Shown in pieces: positions 3,137-18,401 of a DNA stretch of 35,118 bases. A program made the position numbers and the translations under genes. Location: NCBI GenBank assembly GCA_030689665.1, contig JAUYFS010000007.1, positions 1 through 35,118 of the forward strand. Direction: 5' to 3'. Under the pieces are notes generated by a model. The model had not been told where the DNA came from, searched no databases, and saw only the letters and a program-made list of their open reading frames with translations. Position 1 is the stretch's first letter; each line of letters begins with the position of its first letter. The stretch is from a bacterium (lineage in GTDB: Bacteria > Patescibacteriota > Minisyncoccia > Minisyncoccales > JAUYFS01).

Positions 3137-5203
3137 ATGAAATTTTCATATAACTGGTTAAAAGAATATTTTGACAAGATTCCTGATTATAAAAAAGTCG
3201 TTGATTTAATAACAAACCATGCTTTTGAAGTTGAAGAGGTGAAAAAACAGGGAAGCGATTATATTTTAGACATTAAAATTTTGGCAAACAGGCCTGATTG
3301 TTTTAGTTATTTGGGAATTGCCAAAGAATTAAGCGCGATTTTGAACAAAAAAATAAAATTGCCAGTAGCGGAAAATTTAACTGGGATTAAAAAACAAGGA
3401 AAGAGTTTTAATGTTGAGGTTAAAGATAAAAAATTATGTCCGCGCTACACGGCAATTTTGATGAAAGGAGTTAGGGTAAAAGAATCTCCAAAATGGCTAA
3501 GGCAAAAACTTGAGGCAAGCGGATTAAATTCAATAAATAATATTGTTGATGCTGCCAATTACGCGATGTTGGAAACAGGACAGCCGCTACACGTTTTCGA
3601 TTTTGCGAAAATAGGAGATAAAAATATTATTGTCAGAAAAGCGAAAAAAGGAGAACAAATTACAACCCTGGATGATAATAAATTCGTTTTAGATGAAAAC
3701 ATTTTAGTGATTGCCGACAGCAAAGATTCTTTGGCAATCGCCGGAATCAAGGGCGGCAAAAAAGCTGAAATCACTGAAAAAACCAAGGATATTTTAATTG
3801 AGTCAGCCAATTTCCAGCAATTGGTTATCAGAAAGGGCTCCCAAAAACTGGCTTTAAGAACAGACAGTTCGCTTCGCTTTGAACACGGCCTGGACCCAAA
3901 TTTAACTTTAGAAGGAATGAAAAGGGTTGTTTTTTTAATAAAAGAGGTTGCTGGCGGAGCTGTTGAAGAAATCGCTGATTTTTATCCCGCGCCAATTAAA
4001 AACTGGAAAATCAAATTGAATTTCAAAAAAGTTGAAAAAATTTTGGGAATAGCGATTTCAATTCAGGAAATTATAAAAATTTTACAAGGATTGGGCTTGA
4101 AAATAATAAAAAAGGAAAAAGATTCAGTTTTAATTGAAGTTCCCACATTAAGGAAAGATTTGCTGCTGCAGGAAGATTTGGTTGAAGAAATTTGCAGAAT
4201 TTACGGAGTGGAAAAAATATTGGCAAAAGAGCCGATGATTCACGCAAAACCAGTTGATACCAACGAATCAAATTATTTGGAAGAAAAAATCAGGGATTTC
4301 CTGAAAGAGTTGAAATTCAGCGAGGTTTTCAATTATTCCTTCATATCTCAAACCCAAAAAAATATCCTTAAATATTCAAATCATTCTCTGGTGGAATTGG
4401 AAAATCCTTTAAGTTCCGAATTTCAGTATTTAAGGCCAAGTTTAATCCCGAATTTTTTGGATTCAGCAAAGAAAAATTTGCGTTATTTTGACAAATTCCA
4501 AATTTTTGAAATAGGAAAAATTTTCAGCCCCAATGGAAGGAAAAAATCAATTTACGATGTTCAGGGGATAGAAGAGAAAAAATCCATGGCGTTTCTAATG
4601 GCTGACAAAAATAAAAAAATGGAGCTTGATGATTTTAGATTTTTAAAAGGAATTACCGAAACATTTCTGCAGGAATTGGGAATCGCTGATTCTTGGTTTG
4701 ACGATGTTGTTCCTTTAATCCAAGAAAGAATTATTTTCTGGCATCCGAAAAGATTGGCAACAATCAAAATTCAAGACAAAACAATCGGCCAGATAGGGGA
4801 GGCGAATCCGGCATTGCTAAAAAATTTAAACATAGACGCCAATATAATGGTGGCCGAATTTGATTTGGAAGAATTGATAAAAATTTCCAGAGAAGAAAGA
4901 ACCTTCAGCTCAATTTCCGCCTTTCCGTCAGTTGTCAGAGATATTTCAATTTTAGTGCCTTTGGAAGTTAAAATTGACGAAGTTGTCAGAAAAATAGACC
5001 AATTGGGGGGAAAATTAATAAGCGACATTGAGCTGTTTGACATTTATTCCGAAGAAGAGCTTTTTAAAGGCAAGCAGAGTTTGGCTTTTAGGATTATTTT
5101 TCAGTCGGAAAACAAAACGCTTTCCAGCGAGGAAATTGATAATTTAATGAAAAATATTATAATGGGATTAGAGAAACAAAAAGATTGGCAAGTGAGAAAA
5201 TAA
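3137..5203 (+). CDS. pheT: Phenylalanine--tRNA ligase beta subunit, short form without the N-terminal EMAP/tRNA-binding insert
   Basis: MKFSYNWLKEYF start, B3/B4 and B5 segments, C-terminal FDX-ACB-like SAFPSVVRDISILVP; 688 aa. Confidence 0.96.
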   Translation: MKFSYNWLKEYFDKIPDYKKVVDLITNHAFEVEEVKKQGSDYILDIKILANRPDCFSYLGIAKELSAILNKKIKLPVAENLTGIKKQGKSFNVEVKDKKLCPRYTAILMKGVRVKESPKWLRQKLEASGLNSINNIVDAANYAMLETGQPLHVFDFAKIGDKNIIVRKAKKGEQITTLDDNKFVLDENILVIADSKDSLAIAGIKGGKKAEITEKTKDILIESANFQQLVIRKGSQKLALRTDSSLRFEHGLDPNLTLEGMKRVVFLIKEVAGGAVEEIADFYPAPIKNWKIKLNFKKVEKILGIAISIQEIIKILQGLGLKIIKKEKDSVLIEVPTLRKDLLLQEDLVEEICRIYGVEKILAKEPMIHAKPVDTNESNYLEEKIRDFLKELKFSEVFNYSFISQTQKNILKYSNHSLVELENPLSSEFQYLRPSLIPNFLDSAKKNLRYFDKFQIFEIGKIFSPNGRKKSIYDVQGIEEKKSMAFLMADKNKKMELDDFRFLKGITETFLQELGIADSWFDDVVPLIQERIIFWHPKRLATIKIQDKTIGQIGEANPALLKNLNIDANIMVAEFDLEELIKISREERTFSSISAFPSVVRDISILVPLEVKIDEVVRKIDQLGGKLISDIELFDIYSEEELFKGKQSLAFRIIFQSENKTLSSEEIDNLMKNIIMGLEKQKDWQVRK

Positions 5204-5249
5204 AACTTTAATAGAACCTTTTGGTTCCTGTTTTAATTTAAAAAACAAA

Positions 5250-7262
5250 ATGTCAAAAGAAGCGGCAAAAAATAAAGAATATACGGCAAAAGACATTCAA
5301 ATTTTGGAAGGCCTGGAGCCAGTGAGGCAAAGGCCCGGAATGTATATTGGTTCTACCGGTCCTGAGGGGCTGCACCATTTGATTTGGGAGGTTGTTGATA
5401 ATTGTCTTGACGAAGCCATAGGCGGACACGCCAAAAATATTGAAATTGTTTTGATGCACAACAACAGGACAAGCGTTGAAGACGACGGAAGGGGAATCCC
5501 TGTTGATATTCATCAAAAAACAAAGAAATCGGCGTTGGAAACGGTTTTGACAACTCTTCACGCGGGCGCTAAATTTAGCGAAAAAACCTATCAAATGTCC
5601 GGCGGTTTGCACGGGGTCGGGGTTTCTGTTGTTTGCGCTTTGTCAAAATATATGAAGGCAGAGGTTTGCCGCGGAGGAAACCTTTATTCTTTGGAATTTA
5701 AACAAGGAAAAGCGATTGGAAAATTGAAAAAAGAAAAAACCTGCAAAAAAACCGGCACAAAAATAACTTTTGAGCCGGATGAAACGATATTTACCACCAA
5801 TGACAAATTTGACATCAAAAAAATCACAAATCATCTTCGCCAGCAAGCCTATTTGACAAAAGGAATAAAAATTAGAATCAGAGACGAAAGAAGAGAGCCG
5901 CATTTTACTTATTCATTTTATTTTGAAGGCGGCGTTTTGTCTTATTTAAGGTATTTGGTAAGAGGGTATGAAACAAGCAATCCGAGCCCGTTTTTTGTCC
6001 AGCAAAAAAAAGAAAATTTTGAACTTGAAGTTGCTTTCCAATATACAAATGAAATAGACGCTTATGAAGAGAGTTTTACAAATAATATTTTCACCAGAGA
6101 GGGCGGATATCATTTAGTTGGGTTCAGGACAGCTTTGACGAGAAGCATAAACAGCTATGCCCGCAAAAATGAATTTTTCAAAGAAAAGGATGAAAACTTG
6201 ACAGGTGATGATGTAAGGGAGGGGCTTATCGCTGTTGTGGCAATCAGAATTCCAGGCCCCCAATTTGAAGGGCAAACAAAAGCCAGGTTGGGAAATCAGG
6301 AAGTAAAACCAATTGTTGAACAGGTTGTCGGAGAAGCGATTTTGGATTATTTTGAAAAATATCCGCAGGACGCCAAATTGATTATTGAAAAATGCGTTTT
6401 GGCTTCGCTAGCCAGAAAAGCCGCCAAAGCGGCAAAACAAACAGTTTTAAGAAAAGGGCTTTTGGAAGGGTTAAGTTTGCCGGGTAAATTGGCTGATTGC
6501 ATAAACAGAAAATCAGAGGAATCAGAGATTTTTATTGTGGAAGGAGACAGTGCCGGCGGAAGCGCTAAAAGCGCAAGGGATAGAAGGTCTCAGGCGATTT
6601 TGCCGTTGCGGGGAAAAATTTTGAATATTGAAAAATCAAGAATTGACAAAGTATTGGCATCTCAAGAAATCAGGTCTTTGGTAATTGCCATGGGCACTGC
6701 GATTGCCGATGATTTTAACATTGAAAAACTGAGATACCACAAAATCATTATAATGACAGATGCTGATGTTGACGGCGCGCACATAAGAACGCTTCTTTTA
6801 ACTTTATTCTTCCGTTATTTTAAAGAAATAATTGACAGGGGATATCTTTACATAGCCCAGCCGCCGCTTTATAAAGTGCAAAAAGGAAGACAGAGCGAAT
6901 ATGCTTATTCAGAAGAACAAAAAATAAGCATAATGGAAAAATTTAGAGAAGATTCCTCGGCAAAAATTTCTAAAAAAATAAAGCCAATTAAAAAGCAAAA
7001 AGATGAAGGCGAGGAAGAGGAAGCCGGCGAGGAAAAAATTTCTGGAGCATCAATACAAAGATATAAGGGTTTGGGAGAAATGAACACAGAACAATTATGG
7101 GAAACAACCATGGACCCATACAGAAGGGTTCTGAAAAAAGTTTTCATTGAGGACGGGAAAGCGGCTGACAGGATTTTTGATATTTTAATGGGAAACGAAG
7201 TTTTGCCGAGAAAAAAGTTTATTCAGACATTTGCCAAGGGAGTTAAAAACCTTGATATTTAA
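5250..7262 (+). CDS. gyrB: DNA gyrase subunit B (type IIA topoisomerase)
   Basis: RPGMYIGSTGPEGLHHLIWEVVDN, VEGDSAGGSAK, TDADVDGAHIRTLLLT, QRYKGLGEMN. Confidence 0.96.
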   Translation: MSKEAAKNKEYTAKDIQILEGLEPVRQRPGMYIGSTGPEGLHHLIWEVVDNCLDEAIGGHAKNIEIVLMHNNRTSVEDDGRGIPVDIHQKTKKSALETVLTTLHAGAKFSEKTYQMSGGLHGVGVSVVCALSKYMKAEVCRGGNLYSLEFKQGKAIGKLKKEKTCKKTGTKITFEPDETIFTTNDKFDIKKITNHLRQQAYLTKGIKIRIRDERREPHFTYSFYFEGGVLSYLRYLVRGYETSNPSPFFVQQKKENFELEVAFQYTNEIDAYEESFTNNIFTREGGYHLVGFRTALTRSINSYARKNEFFKEKDENLTGDDVREGLIAVVAIRIPGPQFEGQTKARLGNQEVKPIVEQVVGEAILDYFEKYPQDAKLIIEKCVLASLARKAAKAAKQTVLRKGLLEGLSLPGKLADCINRKSEESEIFIVEGDSAGGSAKSARDRRSQAILPLRGKILNIEKSRIDKVLASQEIRSLVIAMGTAIADDFNIEKLRYHKIIIMTDADVDGAHIRTLLLTLFFRYFKEIIDRGYLYIAQPPLYKVQKGRQSEYAYSEEQKISIMEKFREDSSAKISKKIKPIKKQKDEGEEEEAGEEKISGASIQRYKGLGEMNTEQLWETTMDPYRRVLKKVFIEDGKAADRIFDILMGNEVLPRKKFIQTFAKGVKNLDI

Positions 7263-7397
7263 ATAAACCGTTAAAGCTGGCGATAGGTAGCCCCTCCAAG
7301 TTTCCCTCCTTTCTTGAGGGGCTTTAAATCCATGATTCGCAGGCTATTGCCTGGAATTGTGGAGCCTGTCGTTAGCTTTAACGGTTTATTTTTTATT
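7261..7397 (+). terminator. Structured element 1: three-way-junction RNA/terminator overlapping the gyrB stop codon
   Basis: 28-bp closing stem 7261-7288/7364-7391 (outer 18 bp perfect: aaataaaccgttaaagct/agctttaacggtttattt), hairpins 7290-7322 and 7335-7357, then T-rich tail. Confidence 0.75.
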
Positions 7398-7405
7398 AAC
7401 TGAAC

Positions 7406-7539
7406 AGCAACAAGGTTTTTAGACACAGATAGTTAAATCTCCAGCGAGATTTAACTATCTACACTCTTGGCAACAAATCCTCGCTTTGCTTGGAATCATG
7501 CTTTGTTGCCTGCGAGAGTTGTCTGAAAACCTTGTTGCT
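7406..7539. other. Structured element 2: second three-way-junction inverted repeat, adjacent to the pth stop codon
   Basis: 20-bp closing stem 7406-7425/7520-7539; 14-bp perfect hairpin 7427-7460; hairpin 7463-7519 with 5+9 bp. Confidence 0.75.
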
Positions 7540-7541
7540 TT

Positions 7542-8120
7542 CTATTTGTTAAATTGGGTCATTGCTGCTGCCAAACTATTTTCAAGAGCTGTTTCAATCG
7601 CTTTGACGGCATTGTTTATTCCTTTATTCACTAATTTCAATTTTTCTTGGTTTTGCGGTTTTAACAAAAAAGTTCCCATATCTTTTATAGAACTTTTGTT
7701 TTTAAAGGGGCAAGTGCCGATTCTAAACCTGGCAAAGTCATTTGATTTTAAAGTTTTCACTATGCTTTCAACTCCTTTATGCCCGGCAGATTTTTTATTT
7801 TGGGAAATTTTAATTTTTCCAGCCTGTAAATCAATCTCATCATGAACAACCCATAAATTTTCTTTTTTAGCCCCTGATTTTTTTATTAGAGACCTTATTG
7901 CTTCTCCGGAATTATTCATAAAAGTAAGCGGTTTTATCAAAGCCACATTTTTCTTGCCGATTTTACCCTTTGAGACAAGGTATTTTTTATCAAAGGACTC
8001 TTTAAATTCTCCAAATTGATTTTTTTTGCTTATTTTATCAATCACTTCAAAACCCGTGTTGTGCGGGCTTTTTTCATATTCTTTTTCCGGGTTTCCCAAG
8101 CCAATAATAAATATTTCCAT
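7542..8120 (-). CDS. pth: Peptidyl-tRNA hydrolase
   Basis: MEIFIIGLGNPEKEYEKSPHNTGFEVID, KPLTFMNNSGEAI, HDEIDLQAGKIKI, GHKGVESI. Confidence 0.96.
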   Translation of the reverse strand: MEIFIIGLGNPEKEYEKSPHNTGFEVIDKISKKNQFGEFKESFDKKYLVSKGKIGKKNVALIKPLTFMNNSGEAIRSLIKKSGAKKENLWVVHDEIDLQAGKIKISQNKKSAGHKGVESIVKTLKSNDFARFRIGTCPFKNKSSIKDMGTFLLKPQNQEKLKLVNKGINNAVKAIETALENSLAAAMTQFNK

Positions 8121-8926: not shown

Positions 8927-9046
8927 CCCGCCTTCGCTCCGCCGAAGCTTGCAAGAGCGGAGGCGAGCTTCGCCAGAGCTACGGCGTGACGCAGTCCGTC
9001 CTTGGCTGGACAAAGTAAAATCCTTTGGCGGGGCAAGCCCGCTTTT
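8927..9046. repeat. GC-rich palindromic intergenic island
   Basis: cgccttcgctc(8929-8939)/gagcggaggcg(8955-8965); gcggg(9028-9032)/cccgc(9038-9042) followed by tttt. Confidence 0.6.
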
Positions 9047-9084
9047 GTTCTGAGGACTTCGGCGAGGTAAAACAAATAAAAAAT

Positions 9085-16937: not shown

Positions 16938-18401
16938 ATGGACGAGGAAAATTTTGATTGGAGTTTATTGGTCGCTCTTTTTTTCATTAGTGGCGTGATT
17001 TTCGCCTCTTTTTTTGAATTGGAAAAATGGGAATTGTTTTTGATTGCTTTCTTGGTTCCTTTTTTTGTTTTTTTTATTGTTGAAAAAATTATTTTCAAAA
17101 AAATTTTAATTTCTTTCTTTTTTTTGTTTGGTTTGTGTTTTTTTATCGGAGCCGGATTTTTTTATTTTAATTTGGAGAAAATTAAAAACCTTGATGTTTT
17201 TGCCGAAGAAAAATTGGCGGTTTTTGTAATCAGCGAGCCCTCGCCAAAAGAAAGATTTCAAAGTTTTTTGGCTAAATCTCTGAAAAACGGAAATAAATTT
17301 TCCGTGAATGTATCCAATAGTTTTTATATTCAAGAGTACGATTGTTTGGAAATCAAAGGAAAAATAAAAAACATTGATTCAATTGACGATGACGGCTACA
17401 GGCATTATTTGCTTTCCAGGGAAGTAAAGGGAACAATTTATCTTCCTGAGACCAAAAAAATAAATTGCCCTCAAAACTTGGAAATGTCTTTTTATAAAAA
17501 AATTATCGGTTTTAAGAACAAAACCAAGGAAATTATAAATTTCAGCTTGCCCAAAATCAAAGCTGACTTTTTGTCAGCTTTGATTTTGGGCGGAAGAAAC
17601 ACCATTCCCAAAGAATGGAATGACAGATTAAACCGCACCGGAGTGAGCCATATTTTGGCGATTTCAGGAATGCACATTACGATTTGGGCTTTTTTGATTG
17701 TTGAAATTTTAATCCTTTTGGGATTTTGGAGAGGACAGGCGTTTTATATCGTTATTTTGTTTCTGGCGATTTATTTGATTTTAATCGGTTTTCCGGCCTC
17801 TGCCGTAAGAGCCGCTATTATGGCTGTAATTTTTTTAACAGTCCAAAAAATCGGCTACGCGACCCAGTCGGACAGATTGGTGATTATGGCGGCTTTTTTT
17901 ATGATTTTATTCAACCCTTTTGTCATTTATGACATTGGTTTTCAGCTTTCAGCGATGGCTATTCTGGGGATTATTTATTTGTCGCAGTTTTTTAACGATT
18001 TGCTTGAAAAAATAAAAATGCCGAGAATAATCAGCGAGGTTTTAGCAATGACTTTTGCGGCTCAAATTTTCGTGGTTCCGATACTGGCTTATAATTTTGG
18101 ACAAATTTCAGTTATCAGCCCGATTACAAACATTTTAATCGCGCCGCTTTTTCCTTTTATTTTGATAACAGGTTCAGCTTTGATAATTCTGGGTTTTTTC
18201 CATTTGGAACTTACTTTTTTCGTAAATTGGTTTTTAATTTTGGTTTTTGGATATTTTTTGGAAGTTGTCAGGTATTTTGACAAAGTCCCTTTCGCAATCG
18301 CTGAAATTAAAAACCTTTCATTTGTCGTTTTTGTGATTTACTACCTCTTTTTATCTTTAATCACTTGGTTTATAATTAAAAAAAGAAAATTCCAAATATG
18401 A
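16938..18401 (+). CDS. comEC: ComEC/Rec2-family competence membrane protein, no C-terminal metallo-beta-lactamase domain
   Basis: Multiple TMs; GRNTIPKEWNDRLNRTGVSHILAISGMHITI; PASAVRAAIMAVIF. Confidence 0.9.
   Translation: MDEENFDWSLLVALFFISGVIFASFFELEKWELFLIAFLVPFFVFFIVEKIIFKKILISFFFLFGLCFFIGAGFFYFNLEKIKNLDVFAEEKLAVFVISEPSPKERFQSFLAKSLKNGNKFSVNVSNSFYIQEYDCLEIKGKIKNIDSIDDDGYRHYLLSREVKGTIYLPETKKINCPQNLEMSFYKKIIGFKNKTKEIINFSLPKIKADFLSALILGGRNTIPKEWNDRLNRTGVSHILAISGMHITIWAFLIVEILILLGFWRGQAFYIVILFLAIYLILIGFPASAVRAAIMAVIFLTVQKIGYATQSDRLVIMAAFFMILFNPFVIYDIGFQLSAMAILGIIYLSQFFNDLLEKIKMPRIISEVLAMTFAAQIFVVPILAYNFGQISVISPITNILIAPLFPFILITGSALIILGFFHLELTFFVNWFLILVFGYFLEVVRYFDKVPFAIAEIKNLSFVVFVIYYLFLSLITWFIIKKRKFQI

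Follow-up and report, generated by a model that had tools for sequence, protein, structure and literature searches.

Between gyrB and pth: a folded element

The window, that is, the whole 35,118-nucleotide stretch of DNA that was analysed, is contig 32 in a 455-kb genome of 33 contigs. This genome is the sole member of its genus and family among the genomes compared. Between the convergent genes gyrB and pth, the window carries two three-way junctions, the second of which is the subject of this study. The features of the region, with positions counted along the window, are as follows.

5250-7262, plus strand: gyrB (DNA gyrase B; Pfam PF00204 and PF00986), flanking the element and convergent with pth
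7261-7391, plus strand: neighbouring three-way junction between gyrB and pth (fold z = -11.5), followed by a T-rich tract
7406-7539, minus strand (the conserved strand): whole three-way-junction element (fold z = -10.7 and -10.9; 86 bits with the family model)
7412-7533, minus strand: core covered by the family (covariance) model
7406-7425, minus strand: one arm of the outer stem (the left one on the plus strand), from direct reading and folding
7520-7539, minus strand: other arm of the outer stem, from direct reading and folding
7427-7460, minus strand: hairpin 2, 14-15 bp; its loop at 7441-7446 reads CGCTGG on the minus strand and is near-invariant across the family
7459-7462, minus strand: GTAG directly 5' of hairpin 2, a REP-like tag
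7463-7519, minus strand: hairpin 1, 5+9 bp, with an internal G.A-type loop at its base
7496-7501, minus strand: bulge GCATGA, whose family form is GCATGGT or GCTTGGT
7542-8120, minus strand: pth (peptidyl-tRNA hydrolase; Pfam PF01195), convergent with gyrB, its stop codon 2 nt from the element

Direct reading of the sequence pairs the outer arms (7406-7425 with 7520-7539) over 20 bp with one G-U. Within them, a perfect hairpin joins 7427-7440 to 7447-7460, and adding the next C-G pair gives 15 bp with a 4-nt loop. The other hairpin pairs actct (7463-7467) with agagt (7515-7519) and ggcaacaaa (7469-7477) with tttgttgcc (7502-7510). When folded as RNA, positions 7406-7539 gave exactly this three-way junction at -69.2 kcal/mol, while shuffled versions reached -29.2 +/- 3.7 kcal/mol (z = -10.7; 0 of 200 as stable), confirming the arms and hairpins described in the initial annotation. 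Folding the minus strand as DNA gave a z of -10.9.

The initial annotation had also described 7261-7391 as a junction of the same topology and unrelated sequence. The folding score of this neighbour bears out the first point. As for the second, the neighbour reached just 6 bits with the family model presented below, filters off, which rules it out as a family member and upholds the lack of relationship between the two junctions; elsewhere in the genome, however, 7406-7539 has clear relatives in both sequence and structure. It had further been argued that two matched elements lying back to back point to selection for structure. Because 7261-7391 does not belong to the family, this argument is unsupported in that form, and we infer that the neighbour is likely the gyrB terminator, perhaps nothing more. 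True inverted pairs of family members do exist elsewhere, lying back to back at 5185-5318 and 5350-5473 of another locus of the same genome (L012), with a TIR on one side, and at one locus in a relative (L138).

Within the window, Rfam gave no match above the gathering score; a hit to MIR172 (E = 0.095) was under the cut-off and belongs to a plant miRNA, and was dismissed. Two other structured stretches were seen in the window: a multi-branched, palindromic, GC-rich one between two genes (8935-9075) and a long near-perfect hairpin within a long membrane-protein reading frame (17540-17600).

A dispersed family with a conserved shape

A whole-genome folding scan exposed further three-way junctions, several of which share sequence with the minus strand of 7406-7539. 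The shared sequence sits in the unpaired parts (ACTCTCG ... GAGAGTGTAG ... CGCTGG loop ... GGTG), and the common fold from seven aligned copies shows compensatory changes at 31 of 40 pairs. The covariance model found 13 matches of at least 55 bits in the 455-kb genome; contig ends truncate three of them, and one overlaps another match. The search for similar elements proposed in the initial annotation yielded at least 11 good copies. Genome-wide, the window copy scored 86 bits (E = 3e-24). With filters off, it reached 85.9 bits on the minus strand and 7.3 on the plus; the conserved strand is therefore the minus strand and not the plus strand, on which the element had initially been read.

Copies occur in 85 of the 247 genomes from the same order, with a maximum of 12 per genome. 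A phylum-wide sample yielded 25 positive genomes, 22 of them from outside the order, and Candidatus Nealsonbacteria is among the named carriers; beyond the order, the distribution is patchy. Such carriers, and the small size of the genome, suggest that the window comes from Patescibacteria. Rfam returned no family match at the element copies in 14 loci of this and related genomes, plasmids, phages and IMG/VR gave no matches with the queries used, and we found no description of the element in the literature searched. We conclude that the gyrB-pth element is a copy of a previously unlisted, probably mobile DNA repeat present in many Patescibacteria-like bacteria. Separately, the scanned loci include a stable multi-branched fold beside a tRNA-like sequence (L020:5040-5300), which does not match the family model.

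Across 87 copies, 95.1% of the helix cells are paired. The covariation score reaches 0.825, whereas shuffles score 0.213 and slid pairings no more than 0.171; the alignment of the 87 copies was fitted to the model, which favours the structure, but the slid control shows that this effect is not general. The initial annotation had proposed selection for structure, to be abandoned if homologs lacked compensatory changes. Both sides have changed in 39 of the 40 pairs, and the proposal is strongly supported.

The conserved positions are the unpaired ones (82-100% overall). The bulged A of hairpin 2 is conserved at 100%, while the G and A of the basal loop in hairpin 1 reach 95-100%, the GC..GGT bulge 86-98% and the GCTG loop 82-98%. 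Outside the genome of the window, the outer-stem foot has the sequence GCGA-GGC...GCC-GAGC, in which G-C pairs close a tandem G.A mismatch, and it occurs on the conserved strand in 43 of 60 copies and on the other strand in 0; the window copy lacks this foot. The strand bearing the unpaired marks is the one described by the family model. Since the stems vary yet stay paired, and the unpaired bases hardly change, we take the shape of the element to be selected, most likely in the form of a folded DNA strand.

Empty sites, TIR elements and gene ends

Near-identical copies with different flanks occur inside single genomes. In G198, where the element is present, 323 bp separate rpsH from rplF, and in its congeners G203, G090, G205 and G206 the spacer measures 23-45 bp; among 13 genomes of this genus, the copy is found in G198 only and is missing in the 12 congeners. 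In the same spacer (L269-L281), species of one genus differ in the palindromic inserts directly behind the rpsH stop, and several of these loci show a promoter-like TTGAC-TATAAT ahead of rplF.

Some copies are bounded by TIRs. In the genome of the window, TIRs of the TGTAAGAA...TTGTTTACA type enclose the copies of L018 and L032, as well as one in L017 that is degraded.

L017:14245-14410: TIR-bounded element with a 7-bp duplication
L018:5524-6061: TIR-bounded element of 538 bp, with nested extra hairpins in a junction arm
L032:2821-3175: TIR-bounded element with a 6/7 duplication

Exact 7-bp target duplications accompany the TIR-bounded copies in L017 (CTTTAAT), L018 (AATAATC), L121 (TTTGATA) and L126 (TTTTAAA), and those in L032 and L123 match at 6 of 7 positions. 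A second TIR type, GGGTAAAG, surrounds copies in G084 and G061. Across the order, one TIR type is met repeatedly, in elements of 66-540 bp. As to an autonomous partner with such ends, only an internally deleted remnant of an rve_3 transposase was found, in one related TIR element (L223).

With some of its copies in such TIRs, their 7-bp duplications and a related element holding an rve_3 remnant, the family resembles the MITEs of IS481-like transposons, and these same features are what one would expect if the repeat were a purely passive module of IS481-like or other TIR-bounded miniature transposons, its junction a by-product of repeated palindrome formation. We consider this improbable. Unlike in such MITEs, the core also occurs in other TIR types or, in most members, free of TIRs: the window copy, beside which no TIR of the IS481-like type was seen, and most of the relatives' copies have none. 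Few elements of the recurring TIR type contain the core, and together with the TIR-less copies this indicates that the core forms a unit of its own, capable of being carried by TIR elements; related TIR elements occur without it. Moreover, the conservation of the unpaired bases calls for selection, to which passive cargo would not be subject. Counting against the mobile reading, on the other hand, the TIR-less copies showed no target duplication at their ends.

Copies of the family are extragenic and lie near gene 3' ends, a location shared with REPs. Between tandem genes, the two orientations occur 31 and 7 times (p = 1e-4), and a stop codon lies 5-30 nt from the core on the strand opposite the conserved one in 27 cases vs 4 (p = 3e-5), in counts where copies from the same or from related genomes are only partly independent of one another. 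For 49 of 67 copies, the unit comes directly after the end of a gene that lies on the strand opposite the conserved one, with a sharp peak where the stop codon abuts it, and most of the relatives' copies adjoin a stop codon in one orientation. Outside the order, the stop-codon distance follows a like trend (10 vs 3); a sample from other families shows a similar trend (17 vs 7), which alone is not significant. The five copies in the one-contig genome G559 are all on the plus strand, and targeting by replication direction was set aside as not obvious.

This orientation bias is not required of a neutral insertion and counts against reading the repeat as mobile DNA, since RNA-level selection could yield it. 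It makes the main rival a functional RNA at mRNA 3' ends (a stabiliser, a site of processing or a signal for the end of transcription), whose usefulness would be the reason for its being copied around. Placement behind genes, the peak at the abutting stop codon and the strong covariation all agree with such a role, which we nevertheless hold to be rather unlikely. The conserved unpaired G.A motifs and loops are antisense to the neighbouring genes, which speaks against selection acting on a 3'-UTR RNA; the unit is not followed by a T-tract, and the element is dispensable at rpsH-rplF in the congeners.

Mismatches in the stems bear on the same question. At positions scored without the model, the arms contain 19 G.T and 19 A.C mismatches (38 in all), whereas control tRNAs from the same loci contain 50 G-U and 0 A-C. 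Selection on RNA should favour G-U on one strand, and the 19:19 ratio thus suggests that pairing is not maintained on a single RNA strand. Consequently, the constraint on arm pairing looks DNA-level or strand-symmetric, as far as these few mismatches (n = 38) indicate. Model-fitted counts (75 G.T vs 15 A.C) were dropped as a measure of strand bias, since the model rewards G-U. Between the two forms originally envisaged, an RNA or the folded DNA of a mobile element, the second fits better, given the dispersal, the absence from congeners, the TIR elements with 7-bp duplications and the lack of strand bias in the mismatches.

Relation to known systems and a proposed mechanism

REP, BIME and REPIN sequences are GTAG- and CGTC-tagged palindromes (PMC3733652, PMC3116915), and REPs are known to adjoin the 3' ends of genes (PMC3733652). 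Our family resembles them in consisting of dispersed intergenic palindromic repeats near gene 3' ends, often in inverted pairs, with no target duplication at their own ends and, in some copies, with a tetranucleotide 5' of a hairpin. In contrast to them, it measures about 150 bp, encloses a three-way junction, and possesses a near-invariant bulge and loop and a G.A foot; it is low in copy number, does not conserve GTAG and does not flank RAYT genes. Ahead of hairpin 2, GTAG is found in 16 of the 87 copies and GCAG in 20 (36 together), and, with a unit of this length, the family does not fit the REP pattern of a 20-40 bp palindrome whose foot carries a GTAG or CGTC tag.

The 36 tagged copies and the REP-like location (PMC3733652) could nonetheless reflect an element of REP/REPIN type whose mover, a RAYT (Y1) transposase, has since been lost from the genome of the window. 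Y1 genes are indeed present in 63 of 85 genomes with copies vs 69 of 162 without (p = 2e-6), an association uncorrected for kinship and confounded by it. Even so, this origin seems very unlikely: none of 20 Y1-gene loci in relatives bears a copy, most of the RAYT genes inspected have simple hairpins of their own on their flanks, and copy-rich genomes (that of the window, G084 and G233) are without Y1. As the Y1/RAYT transposase (PF01797) is absent from the genome of the window and no copies lie beside the 20 Y1 genes, we rejected it as the mover. In the relatives, most of the RAYT-like genes at loci L165-L184 bear their own flanking hairpins of simple form, CGAGAACNGTTCTCG for example, and apparently represent REPtrons in the order.

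Integron attC sites are folded single-strand substrates (PMC2727003). The family shares with them variable stems, a function expected from shape and extrahelical bases that mark one strand; unlike attC, it forms a three-way junction and not one hairpin, and no cassette arrays were seen. None of the attC boxes (GTTRRRY/RYYYAAC) is conserved in the consensus of the 87 copies, and a pure attC reading was rejected, GTTAAAT in hairpin 2 of the window copy not being conserved in the family. The ends of IS200/IS605 and palindrome-associated elements carry subterminal imperfect hairpins that are recognised as single-stranded DNA. The architecture of our family differs from these, and no Y1 transposase was found in the genome of the window or beside copies.

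We favour, with a probability of about one half, the reading of the element as a non-autonomous mobile DNA repeat of about 150 bp, REP-like and patchy in Patescibacteria, which is read as a folded single DNA strand. Dispersal, absence at an orthologous site in congeners, a conserved shape with conserved unpaired bases on one strand and a preference for positions directly behind stop codons are observed directly, and a folded DNA strand is preferred because of the unpaired marks, the mobility and the mismatch pattern; the orientation bias keeps a role of RNA in 3'-end formation as its main competitor. Our model suggests that replication or repair would free the conserved strand (minus in the window), allowing it to fold into the three-way junction. 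A candidate trans-acting enzyme, of the HUH nuclease or tyrosine-recombinase type, would read the CGCTGG loop, the GCATGGT bulge, the G.A loops and the bulged A, and would then move or copy the element. TIR elements mobilised by an IS481-like transposase may also take some copies along as cargo. As for the window copy itself, it probably inserted between the convergent gyrB and pth long ago and no longer moves, and it may still affect both transcript ends.

More tentatively, the repeat might represent a phylum-wide, undescribed class of mobile DNA. Its recognised form would be the single-stranded three-way junction with G.A mismatches, a bulged A and a fixed bulge and loop, moved by a candidate recombinase that targets the positions directly behind stop codons in one orientation. 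If the folded DNA three-way junction is the substrate, a new architecture joins the single-strand elements recognised by shape (attC, IS608 ends and REPs). With the covariance model and sets of genomes of one genus with and without the element, insertion, strand choice and the effect on gene ends are directly testable. Patescibacteria genomes are very small, yet many of them keep several copies, some inside essential operons such as that containing rpsH-rplF.
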